Source of the DNA: Oscillospiraceae bacterium | GTDB lineage: Bacteria; Bacillota; Clostridia; Oscillospirales; Acutalibacteraceae | NCBI GenBank assembly: GCA_015065425.1 | Contig: SVQH01000005.1 | Span: 52,337-116,336, forward strand | Length of the DNA: 64,000 bases | Direction: 5' to 3' | In this document: piece after piece, positions 1,548-64,000 of the stretch | Layout: the number at the start of each line of letters is the position of its first letter | Numbering within the stretch: the stretch's first letter is position 1 | Position numbers and translations under genes: made by a program | Notes under the pieces: model-generated | Database searches by the model: none | Told to the model about the DNA's origin: nothing | What the model saw: the letters and a program-made list of their open reading frames with translations, nothing else

Positions 1548-2423
1548 TTAGTAATACATTGTAAGAGTTGCAACAACGGGGAAATGATCTGAGGGGTAGA
1601 TTCCGTTTATTTTTTCTGTCACGACATCATAGACTGCAACTTCTTTGCAGTAGGAATTTACAAAGATATAGTCAATGGGTTTGCTGTTTGTTTTGTGAAG
1701 ATTGGCATAGCCGTGGTAGGTTGCACCCGAATCCGAGGTTTCGGCTAAGTATTTTGTATCACGGAAGCCTGCTTCAAGGGCTCTTTTGTACATAAGATTA
1801 CCCTCTTTTGCATTAAGGTCGCCGGAAAAGACAACAGGCATATCATAAGCAACGGCTTTTTCGGATACAATTCTTATTGCCTCAACTCTTGAAATCGAAC
1901 CTGAATTGTCAAAATGAGCATTGAAATGTGCATAAGTAAAGCCTGTTTCCTTATCTTTAAGGACTGCCACGGTGCAGATTCTGTTAATCCATGCATCCCA
2001 ACCTTTAGAGGGCTTGTCGGGAGTTTTTGAAAGCCAGAATGTTTCTGTTGACAGAAGTTCATATTTTTCATTCTTATAAAATACGGCACTTGCCTCTCCG
2101 CCGAGATCCTTATCTCTTCCGTGGCCTGCATAAGAATATTCAGGCAAAGCCGCTGACAGTCTCTTAAGCCATGCTTCGTCAGCCTCTTCCACACCGAAGG
2201 AATCGGGGTCTGCATTTCTTATAGTCTCTACCACCTCATCCGTTCTGTTTTCGGGGCTTTTCTTACCCGTACCCTTAATATAAACATTGAAATTCATAAC
2301 GGTTATCACCTGTATCTGAGCCGTTTCGGAAATCTCCGCCTCGGGCAGCACAGTCACGGGAGTGAACCATCCGCCAATAATTGTCATCATAAATGCCATA
2401 AAAGCACTGAATATCTTTTCCAT
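1548..2423 (-). CDS. Endonuclease/exonuclease/phosphatase family protein
   Basis: This 291-residue protein has the EEP (DNase I-like) fold motifs in order: MNFNVY near the N-terminus, a Glu in FGVEEAD, AHFNAHFD, SGDLNAKEG, KPIDYIFVN and a terminal SDHFPVVAT. These are the metal and catalytic positions of the family, which hydrolyses phosphodiesters in nucleic acids, lipids or inositol phosphates; the substrate cannot be read from sequence. A hydrophobic N-terminus (FMAFMMTIIGGWF) suggests export or membrane anchoring. An ATG at 2423 has AAAGGAGAG upstream and is preferred over an in-frame TTG nine codons earlier. It lies 78 bp downstream of the GH116 gene on the same strand and may be cotranscribed with it. 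Confidence 0.85.
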   Translation of the reverse strand: MEKIFSAFMAFMMTIIGGWFTPVTVLPEAEISETAQIQVITVMNFNVYIKGTGKKSPENRTDEVVETIRNADPDSFGVEEADEAWLKRLSAALPEYSYAGHGRDKDLGGEASAVFYKNEKYELLSTETFWLSKTPDKPSKGWDAWINRICTVAVLKDKETGFTYAHFNAHFDNSGSISRVEAIRIVSEKAVAYDMPVVFSGDLNAKEGNLMYKRALEAGFRDTKYLAETSDSGATYHGYANLHKTNSKPIDYIFVNSYCKEVAVYDVVTEKINGIYPSDHFPVVATLTMYY

Positions 2424-2501
2424 ATATTTTCTCTCCTTTCGTTTTAACAATAATACAGCATATTGTAAAAATTGTCAATAAACATAAAACTCTCCTGCCT
2501 G

Positions 2502-4964
2502 TTACTGCACACTTATATCCCAACCGCTCAAATCTCCGCTGATGCAGGTGATATCGCATTTGCCGTCTGTGAAGGTAACCTTAGCTAAAATATCAGGCAG
2601 ACAAAGAGGAAAGGTTATATTTTTATCAATGGGATTAAATGCCAGCTTTTTGTTTTCGCAGTCAACCGCCATTCCCGAAGCCGCAATAAGTGTGCTCCAG
2701 CTTGACATCGGACGGGTATAGTGATGTCCGCATTCCCAATGGTCCCAGAAGGTGCCGAATCTTAACTGATTGCTGTGAATTGAGCCGACTATGGTATCGG
2801 AAATTCCGCATTCCCCGACAGACATGGCGAGAGCCGAGAAGACATATCCGATACCTGTCCATACAGCTATTGTCTGACAGTTATTATAAGTATCAATAGT
2901 TGTCTTTCTTCCCTTCGGCACGGTAGCATTGACAAGTCCTTGTTCAGCATCAAAATTATTTCTGAAAATAAATTCAACCACCGAACGGACTTTTTCATGG
3001 GGAATATTACCCTCAAGTCCTGTCATTCTCAGGAACCATTCTCCGTCAAGCTGGTCAGTCATAAGTGATTCATCGGTTTCGTCATTGTTTCTCCATAGGT
3101 TATAGTACTCACCGTTCCAGAGCTTTTCTTCAAGAGCTTTCTTTCCCTTATGGAGGATACCGTTCCATTTTTCAGAAAAGAGATTTTCTCCAACTCTGTC
3201 AGCAATGATTGTTGCAGCCTTCAAAGTAGCTAACCAAAGAACAGAAATATATACGGGTGTGCCCGAGAAATTCCACGCATCATAGGTGTTACGCTTTGTG
3301 CCGTAATCGGGCAAACCGTCATTATCCGTGTCAAGCATTTCCATAGAATCCATAGCCCGTCTGACATTATCCCACAGGGAGATAAGATACTCTCTGTCGC
3401 CTGTAAAAAGATAATCGCGAAGCACCATCAGAACAAACTGCATATTGATATCGACTCTGTCGAAGCCGTTGTCCGAGCATTTCATATCAGGCTTGAAGCT
3501 GTGATGCACTCTGCCGTCTTCCCGCTGATAACAAGCCCCCATTTTCATTTGCTTTTTCTGTAAATCAGGGAAAAGGCAGATAAGAGAAAATGATGCGTGA
3601 TAGGTTATATCCGTGGTATGAAGTCCACAGTAGCCGAGCCCCTCCCACAGACCGAATTTTCCGTTTTTGAGATAAACGGAGTCCTTTACAAGCTGTGAAA
3701 GATTGGACGACCACGTATCGGGATAAACTGACGGCAAAGAAGTACTGTAAAGAAGCTCCGAAAAACCGACGGCGGACTTAAAAATGCTGTAAAAGCCTTC
3801 TTCAAGAGTTCTGTTTGCTTCAAGGGAGCTTTTATAAAGATTTTCATAATAATGTCCGATTCTTTCACCATCCGAAGCATAGTGATTGGGAAAGTACCAG
3901 GTGAGAATAAAACGGATATTTTTCTTTTCCCCGGGCCCCAGTACAACTTCAGAGCAAAGAGCACAGGCTCCGAAATCCTCACCCCTTCTGTCATTCTGAT
4001 TATAGCAGTTGTCAAGGAAGAAAATTTTATTTTCTCTTGTTGACAGAAAATCCGGCTTGCAGTATAAAATACGGCTGAGAAGTGAAGAAACAAAGGGATA
4101 TTTTATATATTCCTCACACCAAGCATCAAGCTCAGCGTCACTTAAATGTTCAAGGTTATCAGGTAAGGGCTTAAGCTTTGTTCCGATTTCTGTATCGGGA
4201 AGTCTGCCTTTTTCTCTGAAACCGAAGAGAACGGATTCCTGTGTTACACCGAGGTCTGAATCGGCTATAAATTCCTTCATGAAACGGTAGAAAGATGCGG
4301 TAATATAGGACTTTTCTCCTTCGCCGTTTACCGAAAGACAGAGATTTCCGCAAGAGGGTGAATCGGAAGTCTCAGCCGGCTCTATAAAAATTCCCACTCC
4401 GTCACCAATACTGTGAAGAGAATTTTTGTTCCCCTCATTTTTATTTGCAACATCAGGCACAAGAGTTCCCAAAAGACTTATCTGAAGCTCACTTTCTGTG
4501 GGGTTTTCTACGGTAAAATCCATATAAAAGCCGGGTGTTGACGAAATATCACTGTTATGGGGCACAAAGGGGGAAACCGCTTTAAGGCTGAGCTTACAGG
4601 ATAACGCACTGTCTACAAAATTTAAGTCACACACAGGGAATCTGCCGTCATATTCAATTTTTTCAACGGGCTTATTCCAGGAAAACATACGGTAGGTAAA
4701 ATCATCGGCATCGGTTTTCATCCCGAGCTTTCGGACAACAGGCTTACCTTCAGCCTTCTTTTCTCTCACATAAAAAGAGAGTGCACCCGTGCTCCCCTCT
4801 CCGTCATCTTCCTTTCTTTCAAAGCAAACCTGCGTTAATCTCGGCTGATTTGCAATAAGCCAGCTGTGAAACTCACCGTCAGGAAAAAGCTCAACGCTAC
4901 CGGCACCAATGCCGCCCAAGGCAATACCGCTTGAATGGTTTTTTGTTGTGGTAATTTTAGGCAT
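2502..4964 (-). CDS. GH116 family glycoside hydrolase (GBA2-like)
   Basis: This 820-residue protein matches the non-lysosomal glucosylceramidase family GH116, whose bacterial members are beta-glucosidases or beta-xylosidases acting by retention. The N-terminal domain starts with the family hallmark GIALGGIGAGSVELFPDG; the C-terminal half is the (alpha/alpha)6 catalytic domain. By motif comparison the nucleophile should be Glu441 in LWEGLGYCGLHTTD and the acid/base Asp562 in NTYDAW. The first domain ends near residue 400, and length is normal for the family. No signal peptide is visible, so a cytoplasmic enzyme acting on imported glycosides is likely. GGGAGG sits 8 nt before the ATG. Exact substrate is unknown. 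Confidence 0.88.
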   Translation of the reverse strand: MPKITTTKNHSSGIALGGIGAGSVELFPDGEFHSWLIANQPRLTQVCFERKEDDGEGSTGALSFYVREKKAEGKPVVRKLGMKTDADDFTYRMFSWNKPVEKIEYDGRFPVCDLNFVDSALSCKLSLKAVSPFVPHNSDISSTPGFYMDFTVENPTESELQISLLGTLVPDVANKNEGNKNSLHSIGDGVGIFIEPAETSDSPSCGNLCLSVNGEGEKSYITASFYRFMKEFIADSDLGVTQESVLFGFREKGRLPDTEIGTKLKPLPDNLEHLSDAELDAWCEEYIKYPFVSSLLSRILYCKPDFLSTRENKIFFLDNCYNQNDRRGEDFGACALCSEVVLGPGEKKNIRFILTWYFPNHYASDGERIGHYYENLYKSSLEANRTLEEGFYSIFKSAVGFSELLYSTSLPSVYPDTWSSNLSQLVKDSVYLKNGKFGLWEGLGYCGLHTTDITYHASFSLICLFPDLQKKQMKMGACYQREDGRVHHSFKPDMKCSDNGFDRVDINMQFVLMVLRDYLFTGDREYLISLWDNVRRAMDSMEMLDTDNDGLPDYGTKRNTYDAWNFSGTPVYISVLWLATLKAATIIADRVGENLFSEKWNGILHKGKKALEEKLWNGEYYNLWRNNDETDESLMTDQLDGEWFLRMTGLEGNIPHEKVRSVVEFIFRNNFDAEQGLVNATVPKGRKTTIDTYNNCQTIAVWTGIGYVFSALAMSVGECGISDTIVGSIHSNQLRFGTFWDHWECGHHYTRPMSSWSTLIAASGMAVDCENKKLAFNPIDKNITFPLCLPDILAKVTFTDGKCDITCISGDLSGWDISVQ

Positions 4965-62419: not shown

Positions 62420-62662
62420 TCATGTGAGAGAATTACCTCTGTACGATGTAGGATTTTCCAAAGCATCATAGGAAATACTCTCTCCGTCAAAGTATATGAG
62501 CTTATCCTTCCATGTATCGTTATATGAATACGTAACGGTATCAAGTAAGAGTAAGGGGTCAGAGGTAGAATAATCATAATGCTTTCTTGTGAGAATATTA
62601 CCTCTCTTGTCACACTTTATCGAGGCAAGGCGGAGAGCAGAATCTCTGCCGAATGAAAACAC
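62420..62662 (-). pseudogene. RHS/YD-repeat fragment
   Basis: This 80-codon fragment reads as RHS/YD-repeat sequence: YDYSTSDPLLLLDTVTYSY, then NDTWKDKLIYFDGESISYD and ENPTSYRGNSLT. In intact RHS proteins the last motif is normally followed by TWE or similar and continues for hundreds of residues. Here a TGA stands where Trp is expected (ACA TGA GAA AAG GG), with a further stop soon after. No start or promoter is convincing. It is a decayed remnant, downstream and in the same orientation as the RHS toxin gene at the window edge, as left behind by toxin-cassette exchange. Confidence 0.75.
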
Positions 62663-62734: not shown

Positions 62735-63439
62735 TCAAGTCCAGCCGTTTCTTATCTTAAACTGTGAAAATTCTTCAACATTAAATGAAGGAAAATCTGT
62801 TATTTCAAACAAATCATAATTAAGGTCTGTTGATACAAACAGAAAATATTCTGTTATACCGTTGTTATTCTTTAATTTGAAGTAAAGTATCTCATTTCCT
62901 TTTGTATCAACATCATCTACACATAATTCTTGGATATTCCCACCTGAAAAACCAAGTTTTTCGTGACATAACTTCAGTATTTCTGAATACTCAATTGAAT
63001 TATTTGACATAATAAATCCGTCAAAACTGATAATAATCGGTCTTTTTGTCATTTTATCAACATTCAGTTCTTTGTTCCAGTCATTTGCTTCTTTCAATAA
63101 ATTGACTGTTAAATCGTTATATGTATCAAATGAAAAACAGACATCTTCATAAAAATATACATAATCGGAATCTGCTTTCTGACAGATAACAAAAACACTT
63201 TCTGTTTCCCCGGTAATAAAACATGGGGTAATGAATTCAAATAAAACTCTGTCAAAGGAATCCGTTTCTATAATTTTATAATCAGTCTCAGACCCCTTCA
63301 AATCAGGATAAAAAATTCCGGGAACTGCGTAGGCACCACAAATTAAAAGATTGGGATAATCTTCTGTTTTTATTTCTTCTGTACAACCATTCAGAATAAT
63401 ACAAAGTAAAATAATCACTATAATTTTGATAATTTTCAT
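62735..63439 (-). CDS. Lipoprotein, candidate immunity protein for the RHS toxin
   Basis: This 234-residue protein starts with a lipoprotein signal (IIVIILLCIILNGC, lipobox Cys19) and has no domain I recognise. The rest is acidic, rich in aromatic and Asp/Asn residues (YYFYEDVCFSFDTY-like stretches). GGAAAGGATGG supports the ATG at 63439. It begins 30 bp after the stop of the RHS C-terminal toxin-like domain on the same strand, exactly where polymorphic toxins carry their immunity gene. That role is inference from position. Its lower GC content than the housekeeping genes to the left fits a transferred cassette. Confidence 0.65.
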   Translation of the reverse strand: MKIIKIIVIILLCIILNGCTEEIKTEDYPNLLICGAYAVPGIFYPDLKGSETDYKIIETDSFDRVLFEFITPCFITGETESVFVICQKADSDYVYFYEDVCFSFDTYNDLTVNLLKEANDWNKELNVDKMTKRPIIISFDGFIMSNNSIEYSEILKLCHEKLGFSGGNIQELCVDDVDTKGNEILYFKLKNNNGITEYFLFVSTDLNYDLFEITDFPSFNVEEFSQFKIRNGWT

Positions 63440-63469
63440 TGTTACCATCCTTTCCATCTAATTAGCCCG

Positions 63470-64000
63470 TTAGAAGGAAGCAAAATATGCAAGAGCCGCA
63501 CTAAAAGCATATTCAGCATGTTGCCTGTCAACATTTCCTATAATATCAGCAGTATATTCCCATGGTGGATTATAATAATTTTCATGTATAAATTTACCCA
63601 CAGGATTCTTCCCTCGGGAAATCAGATTAAATAATGCAGAAGGAAGTGCTATATATAATATATAATCATCAATTCCTATAAGTTTTTCTTGTAAAATATG
63701 ACCATATTCATGTTTCAAATAATTCGCTCTGTATTCATAAGAGTATGCATCGAGATTATGATTCAAAAAGATAATTCCACCAATAGACCAGGAGGTCAAA
63801 AAATCATTTGAGTGACGAATAACTAAAGCATCCTTATAAAATGTAAAATATTTTGTTGCGAATACAGCATTTAATTTATGTTCTTCAAGAACTTCCTTTA
63901 CTCCCATTGGAATATTGGAAGTTGTTCCCGAAGCACCGACCCCATCCGTACCTTTAACATGCATAGTCCCTGTTACATCAACATACATCACCGGGTTATT
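63470..64000 (-). CDS. RHS-repeat protein C-terminal end with HExxH toxin-like domain, cut by window
   Basis: The reading frame is open to the right edge (NNPVMYVDVTGTM), matching the end of the RHS core where NP-x-x-YxDPxG marks the junction to a variable C-terminal domain. About 150 residues follow with a metallopeptidase-like HEYGH motif in YLKHEYGHILQEKLIG and a conserved NPPWEYTADIIGNVDRQHAEYA near the end. RHS proteins are polymorphic toxins whose variable C-terminus is the active part. A peptidase activity is inferred from HEYGH alone. The main protein lies beyond the window, and the true start is not visible. Confidence 0.8.
   Translation of the reverse strand, partial: NNPVMYVDVTGTMHVKGTDGVGASGTTSNIPMGVKEVLEEHKLNAVFATKYFTFYKDALVIRHSNDFLTSWSIGGIIFLNHNLDAYSYEYRANYLKHEYGHILQEKLIGIDDYILYIALPSALFNLISRGKNPVGKFIHENYYNPPWEYTADIIGNVDRQHAEYAFSAALAYFASF

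Follow-up and report, generated by a model that had tools for sequence, protein, structure and literature searches.

A predicted zinc-peptidase tip of an RHS protein and its putative lipoprotein immunity partner in an Oscillospiraceae bacterium

The HExxH peptidase VgrG2b of the Pseudomonas aeruginosa type VI secretion system (T6SS) exerts its toxicity in the periplasm but not in the cytoplasm, and immunity proteins of the PA0261 type include, within one family, periplasmic proteins, predicted lipoproteins and transmembrane (TM)-anchored proteins, according to the available part of the report (PMC6899460). For the lipocone toxins, immunity proteins of several folds are described in the accessible text of PMC12419801, all of them TM proteins or lipoproteins, and Imm65, which goes with Tox-JAB-1, is the only lipoprotein immunity protein in the collection of a 2012 survey, as far as the available part of that survey goes (PMC3482391). 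Here we analyze the right edge of a 64,000-nucleotide stretch of Oscillospiraceae bacterium DNA (contig SVQH01000005.1 of assembly GCA_015065425.1), referred to as the window, where the C-terminus of an RHS protein carries a HEYGH-containing tip and is followed by a lipoprotein gene (Table 1). We consider it probable that both belong to a polymorphic-toxin cassette that combines an RHS tip, acting as a zinc peptidase on the outer face of the membrane, with an immunity lipoprotein anchored at the surface.

The RHS tail, its predicted zincin tip and the adjacent lipoprotein

The contig (G000:C40, 116336 bp) stops exactly at the right edge of the window, and therefore the RHS trunk is unreadable here. 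The minus-strand frame that opens at the last base of the window begins with NNPVMYVDVTG and contains HEYGH and NPPWEYTADIIG. The homologues P0002 and P0004 carry a complete RHS core fused to the same tip, which confirms that NNPVMYVDVTG is an RHS-core terminus preceding the HEYGH domain, as the first-pass annotation had proposed. A variable C-terminal tip after the RHS core is thus present in the window frame, in P0002 and P0004, and in other genomes.

In an alignment of 34 tips, HEYGHxxQ, one Gly and one Ser were invariant, and a Pro, a Tyr, the distal Glu and an Ala were nearly so, the invariance of HEYGH being partly built in because the scan pattern or the selection of loci fixes the motif; profile searches recovered HEFGH, HEWGH and HERGH variants. 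The distal W, E and A and a P-S pair were invariant in a separate 17-tip alignment. The Glu predicted to be the third zinc ligand lies 47 residues past the second His of HEYGH. AlphaFold modeling of the tip, as the first-pass annotation had suggested, gave a mean pLDDT of 86.7, with every ten-residue block from 41 to 170 averaging at least 92, and placed HEYGH on one helix and the distal Glu on a later, separate helix, so that alignment and model agree with the zincin signature, in which a later helix adds the third ligand to those of HExxH. The best fold matches of this model were mostly metallopeptidases, and the best rows obtained with Foldseek and VIA-align, all of them weak matches, included BlaR1, an M48-type peptidase, ArdC, BepA, PprI and jannalysin, entries that we take to be zincins. 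In family searches, eCIS_core matched weakly in 4 of the 34 tips (best E 0.016) and Peptidase_M78 in some relatives, which, together with the HExxHxxQ-E signature given for the PVC type in the available part of PMC3482391, would point the same way. The tip is therefore predicted to be a minimal zincin that would bind zinc and act catalytically.

Neither protein of the window scored above the cut-off in any Pfam or NCBIfam family, so the lipoprotein stays outside the recognized families, as first noted. The tip itself had no Pfam match at E <= 1, nor a match to the eCIS_core/PVC-metallopeptidase family model at the same threshold, and the 34-tip profile searched against all PDB sequences gave no match at E <= 10. 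Single-protein searches of solved structures returned one chance-level match each for tip and lipoprotein. Relatives of the tip were found at 63 loci by a pattern scan of named species genomes, in 8 proteins (including that of the window) by a database search restricted to similar lengths, and 7 times in viral contigs, always in small frames without an RHS core. The tip was missing from all other 25 genomes of a genus search, and a phylum search with the tip profile matched 3 of 398 genomes, its own included, the other two matches lying in short frames (164 and 175 residues).

The first ATG of the lipoprotein frame lies 12 bp past the stop codon of the tip, and the likelier start (MKIIKI..., with GGAAAGGATGG before it) lies 30 bp past it, for which the spacing first annotated holds. 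The encoded protein has a signal peptide ending in a lipobox Cys (MKIIKIIVIILLCIILNGC), as bacterial lipoproteins do. Its family comprises 7 proteins, including that of the window, which share this invariant Cys and conserved blocks near ExD..GR and LK..NDW. A search of 300 genomes found the family in 6, its own included, with convincing members in G167 and G262 and weak ones in G316, G253 and G114; viral contigs yielded no relative. In G167 and G262 the family occurs without a tip, in G262 as a tandem of one full and one shorter copy; such tipless and tandem copies are often seen among immunity genes. The weak relative in G253 lies inside a protein (L120:807-1808, plus strand) that has a membrane stretch and, at its N-terminus, a Cys-rich motif resembling a zinc ribbon.

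When the lipoprotein profile was compared with solved structures, a single chance-level match was obtained (E 0.33). The lipoprotein model (mean pLDDT 86.0) has a beta-rich first half and a second half of helix and sheet, the latter with a weak likeness, among other rows, to PepSY-type and latexin-like domains (a helix followed by antiparallel strands). Such a domain, which is not established, would suit an inhibitor of a zinc peptidase.

Table 1. Features at the right edge of the window
Feature	Position	Strand	Basis
RHS protein C-terminus, 176 residues (NNPVMYVDVTG core end, linker, tip)	63470..64000	-	frame and homologues; 5' part missing
Toxin tip, predicted minimal zincin, ~137 residues	63470..63883	-	alignments, AlphaFold model, weak zincin matches
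HEYGH, predicted zinc ligands and catalytic Glu	63698..63712	-	H, E, G, H and the Gln three residues on invariant in alignments
WEYTAD, Glu the predicted third zinc ligand	63545..63562	-	W, E, A invariant in 17/17 tips; Glu on later model helix
Lipoprotein gene, putative immunity protein	62735..63457	-	preferred start 63439, 234 residues; family adjoins homologous tips
GGAAAGGATGG, likely ribosome-binding site of the lipoprotein gene	63445..63455	-	sequence; suggested role
Lipobox Cys (LNGC) of the lipoprotein	63383..63385	-	Cys invariant in family alignments
Decayed RHS-repeat fragment downstream of the lipoprotein gene	62420..62662	-	33/65 residues identical (E 7e-15) to L203 RHS fragment

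Pairing of the tip with surface-anchored partners

The first-pass annotation had staked its immunity proposal on homologous tips being followed by the same lipoprotein family, and this pairing was found at other loci: the family adjoins homologous tips in L004, L006 and L199, and in L007 it lies 368 bp after a trunkless tip. Since both the RHS tail and the lipoprotein have homologues and the pair recurs, their adjacency in the window is more than chance. To compare the next genes, tips were counted that stand in a toxin context and have a readable downstream side, and the next gene encoded a lipobox protein behind 22 of 25 such tips (15/17 found first and 7/8 found later). The corresponding figures were 5 of 57 for RHS proteins that carry other tips and come from the same taxonomic class, and 0 of 51 for the small HEYGH proteins that stand alone. 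Fisher tests gave 9.8e-10 for the first set, 8.4e-6 for the later set and 2.8e-12 jointly, values that are guides only because the loci are not fully independent. The adjacent gene thus goes with the tip, as seen in four other genomes and in the next-gene counts, and because RHS trunks with other tips rarely adjoin a lipoprotein gene, the partner's location at the surface is tied to the tip. This recurrent pairing supports the proposal that the lipoprotein is the immunity partner of the RHS tip and that the toxin would be met at the outer face of the membrane.

The three exceptions among the 25 tips were L021 and L198, whose next protein is TM-anchored, and L052, whose next protein has a signal peptide and no canonical lipobox. 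The TM-anchored partners of L021 and L198 align with groups otherwise made of lipoproteins, so that in two partner groups one member has a TM anchor in place of the lipid.

The first 17 tips comprise that of the window and those obtained by the pattern scan and by a single class-level search; the later 8 came from an order-level profile search that matched in 38 of 394 genomes, from which the 11 strongest matches outside the window were taken, 3 of them standalone. Under a first, permissive lipobox rule 13 of 58 controls scored positive, including many plain membrane proteins, and a second, stricter one flagged 3 of 57 but missed the window, since it forbade Asn. The final, wider rule was used in the same form on every set; it was tuned after the first loci had been seen and left unchanged for the later 8. 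At L052 it fires on the second open reading frame and not on the adjacent gene, which makes the first set 15/17 and not 16/17. Two loci, L021 and L036, are fragmentary and show no trunk, and L021 had been taken in partly for its partner; without both, the first set stands at 14/15. When the eight loci of Bacteroidota and of a single Ignavibacteria genome (L030, L036, L040, L052, L054, L062, L064 and L066) are set aside, the joint count is 15/17. L200 is an orphan tip among RHS fragments, and L039, where the contig stops inside the tip, was left out of the counts. The 57 controls remained from 66 loci after removal of L088, L091, L095, L108 and L110 (no core), L106, L133 and L146 (toxin overruns the stretch) and L131 (same place as L107), and the 51 standalone loci include near-duplicates (L068/L069 and L019/L070). 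Among toxin-like tips standing alone, counted by hand, a partner was present in only 1 of 10, two of the ten lying at contig ends.

The partners fall into at least four groups with no detected relation beyond the signal peptide, namely that of the window, that of L008, L011, L014, L021 and L194, that of L030, L036, L052, L054, L062, L064 and L066 (Bacteroidota and one Ignavibacteria genome), and that of L195, L197 and L198; the partner in L040 is yet another, outside these four. In hhalign comparisons among three partner groups the signal peptides alone aligned; these comparisons predate L194-L204 and did not include the L195/L197/L198 group. L111, L112, L200, L203 and L204 were assigned to the L008 group by loose alignment only. 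A Pfam scan of those group members that were submitted to it revealed no credible family. Tandem partner copies occur in L011, L066 and L203. The trunks were mostly RHS; L014 carries a polymorphic trunk of another kind, the tip of L040 sits on a GG-leader protein, and no trunk was visible in L021 and L036.

Several loci show further arrangements on the plus strand. In Sphingobacterium arenae (L040:3527-5882) the HEYGH tip is carried by a short glycine-rich GG-leader protein followed by the lipobox protein, after which comes a second GG-leader protein with a different C-terminus. In Bacteroides pyogenes (L066:4528-6366) three similar but not identical lipoprotein genes stand in tandem behind the tip. 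L006:2555-3939 has, past tip and partner, a second RHS-core end with another tip and then a different lipoprotein. In L200:473-4611 the orphan HEFGH tip is flanked by ends of RHS cores that bear other tips, and a different lipoprotein gene comes after each of them; these other tips may be further toxins acting outside the cell membrane. Standalone HEYGH proteins were also observed in the phage contigs L067 and L068, the next genes in L067 being terminase-subunit-like by eye, and in the genome of the window itself (L205, G000:C37, frame 1567-2061), where the protein has an N-terminal hydrophobic stretch and relatives that are widespread in Bacillota.

Proposed working and its alternatives

Given this link between the tip and the location of its partner, the most economical reading is that toxin and immunity protein encounter each other on the outer side of the cytoplasmic membrane. 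The RHS protein would be exported by the Sec pathway and sit on the surface of the producer; a signal peptide was recognized by eye on four of five long RHS relatives (L208-L211, the fifth, L212, being without one). On contact it would release and deliver the zinc metallopeptidase of about 140 residues to a neighbor, where the enzyme would work either in the inner zone of the wall or on the external face of the cytoplasmic membrane, most likely cutting an exposed membrane protein or lipoprotein. The adjacent lipoprotein would provide the immunity: anchored in the outer leaflet by its lipid, it would bind the peptidase there and block it, thus protecting producer and kin.

Cleavage of a surface protein is a step beyond location, and the main rival substrate is peptidoglycan. 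The inferred site outside the membrane holds both kinds of substrate and several outside-acting toxins are generally known to attack the wall, so the pair could still be a toxin and its surface immunity protein with the tip as a zinc endopeptidase of stem or cross-bridge peptides. However, the fold matches are protein-cutting zincins (BlaR1, BepA and the M48 peptidase), though too weak to decide, and no wall-binding domain was seen in the tip by the Pfam and NCBIfam scans, so we regard a wall substrate as rather unlikely.

With a similarly low probability, the copy in the window might be a relic in which tip and immunity gene have been left behind with no functional RHS gene. In agreement with this, the contig stops right at the RHS-core end, an RHS remnant sits downstream, and the GC content of the last 1.27 kb, which hold tip and lipoprotein gene, is 31.4%, compared with 41.8 +- 2.3% for the rest cut into 1.26-kb pieces (minimum 32.8%). 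Nevertheless, the tip frame is intact with its conserved residues, the lipoprotein gene has a good ribosome-binding site, homologues elsewhere are fused to long RHS frames, and assembly alone predicts a contig break inside a repeat-rich RHS gene. The reading frame of the downstream fragment is terminated by a stop, and the RHS fragment that it matches in another genome also sits after lipoprotein genes (those of L203). Since rhs genes are described in the available part of PMC2935791 as swapping tips by C-terminal displacement, a new C-terminal cassette placed before an older RHS end fits that process. Just one further RHS core of the genome passed the cut-off; it lies on contig C26 (L003, G000:C26, frames 1-2382 and 2405-3184, plus strand) and was considered as the missing trunk but ruled out, because it ends in a different, HH-rich tip and its next gene lacks a lipobox. 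That tip is presumably nuclease-like.

Two further explanations question the role of the lipoprotein and appear less likely still. In the first, it would be a helper of the RHS protein, such as a surface chaperone, anchor or processing factor, and its gene does lie right behind the toxin in the same direction, and tipless copies exist in G167 and G262; but a helper would go with the RHS trunk, and yet lipoprotein genes adjoin only 5 of the 57 RHS proteins with other tips, the partners go with the tip on other trunks too (L014 and L040), and the partner family varies by locus and comes in tandem copies (L011, L066 and L203), as is often the case for immunity genes. In the second, equally doubtful, the toxin would have a cytosolic target and the lipoprotein would merely catch it at the surface of producer or kin before entry, in line with the mention, in the available part of the 2012 survey (PMC3482391), of immunity proteins believed to work at the membrane during uptake. 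Against this, none of the tips was seen next to a cytosolic partner, while the partners of other RHS tips mostly lack a signal peptide, and VgrG2b, with its HExxH motif and similarly placed immunity protein, shows toxicity in the periplasm but none in the cytoplasm in the accessible text of PMC6899460. It is very improbable that the zincin is a self-processing peptidase of the RHS protein like the PVC-type peptidase of other toxins, in spite of the shared HExxHxxQ-E signature (PMC3482391, available part) and the weak eCIS_core matches in 4 of 34 tips, because it occupies the extreme C-terminus, the place of a toxin tip, with no domain beyond it, and is paired with neighbor genes of its own.

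Extending the outer-face cassette to all the loci, we tentatively suggest that HExGHxxQ tips might form a compartment-bound toxin class of outer-face zinc peptidases, carried on varied trunks in Clostridia-type bacteria and Bacteroidota, that has recruited at least four surface-anchored immunity families with interchangeable lipid and TM anchors, and that inhibition by the partner in the window may depend on a domain of propeptide type (PepSY or cystatin-like); if so, a peptidase inhibitor would have been turned into an immunity protein. Because lipid and TM anchors exchange within single groups, the compartment idea is directly testable. Since a toxin of the outer face needs no import route, discovery of its substrate would reveal a surface molecule indispensable to these bacteria.

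Comparison with known systems

In the open-licence literature searched for the motif, for RHS with metallopeptidase or metalloprotease, and for lipoprotein immunity, no description of this toxin family was recognized. As far as could be seen, toxin family and partners thus appear undescribed, whereas the way in which they would work is of a known kind. The first-pass annotation had called a lipid-anchored immunity protein unusual, and judging by the available parts of PMC6899460 and PMC12419801 it is uncommon but not new; the principle of surface immunity is already known, because VgrG2b/PA0261 and TelC/TipC are precedents for it.

Among zincin-like RHS tips, those of the Tox-MPTase1-5 and PVC-metallopeptidase types are comparable, the PVC type sharing the HExxHxxQ-E signature, but the survey table, in the part available, gives no immunity partner for Tox-MPTase1-5 (PMC3482391). 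The standalone HEYGH proteins of Bacillota, phages and others (e.g. L034, L067 and L205) have the same HEYGHxxQ...PS...YY...E core; unlike the tips, they lack a trunk, often have an N-terminal hydrophobic stretch, and are never (0/51) next to a lipoprotein gene. The TelC/TipC pair and the lipocone systems are alike in that the toxins act in the inner wall zone or at the membrane and immunity is anchored, according to the accessible text of PMC12419801 and PMC6193138, and differ in that lipocone toxins act on lipids or lipid-linked precursors, in contrast to the zinc peptidase predicted here. VgrG2b and PA0261 share with the present system an HExxH metallopeptidase acting outside the cytoplasm and immunity that reaches the envelope by signal peptide, lipid or TM anchor, as described in the available part of that work, but they rely on T6SS delivery in Proteobacteria and not on RHS trunks in the groups found here; the lack of any solved-chain match of the 34-tip profile at E <= 10 covers VgrG2b only if it is in that set. 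The system described here offers a candidate outside-acting zincin toxin for Gram-positive and Bacteroidota bacteria, many of them from animal guts, and several putative immunity families whose anchoring would predict the place of work of the toxin, in a pairing pattern that is general and testable and has clear precedents.
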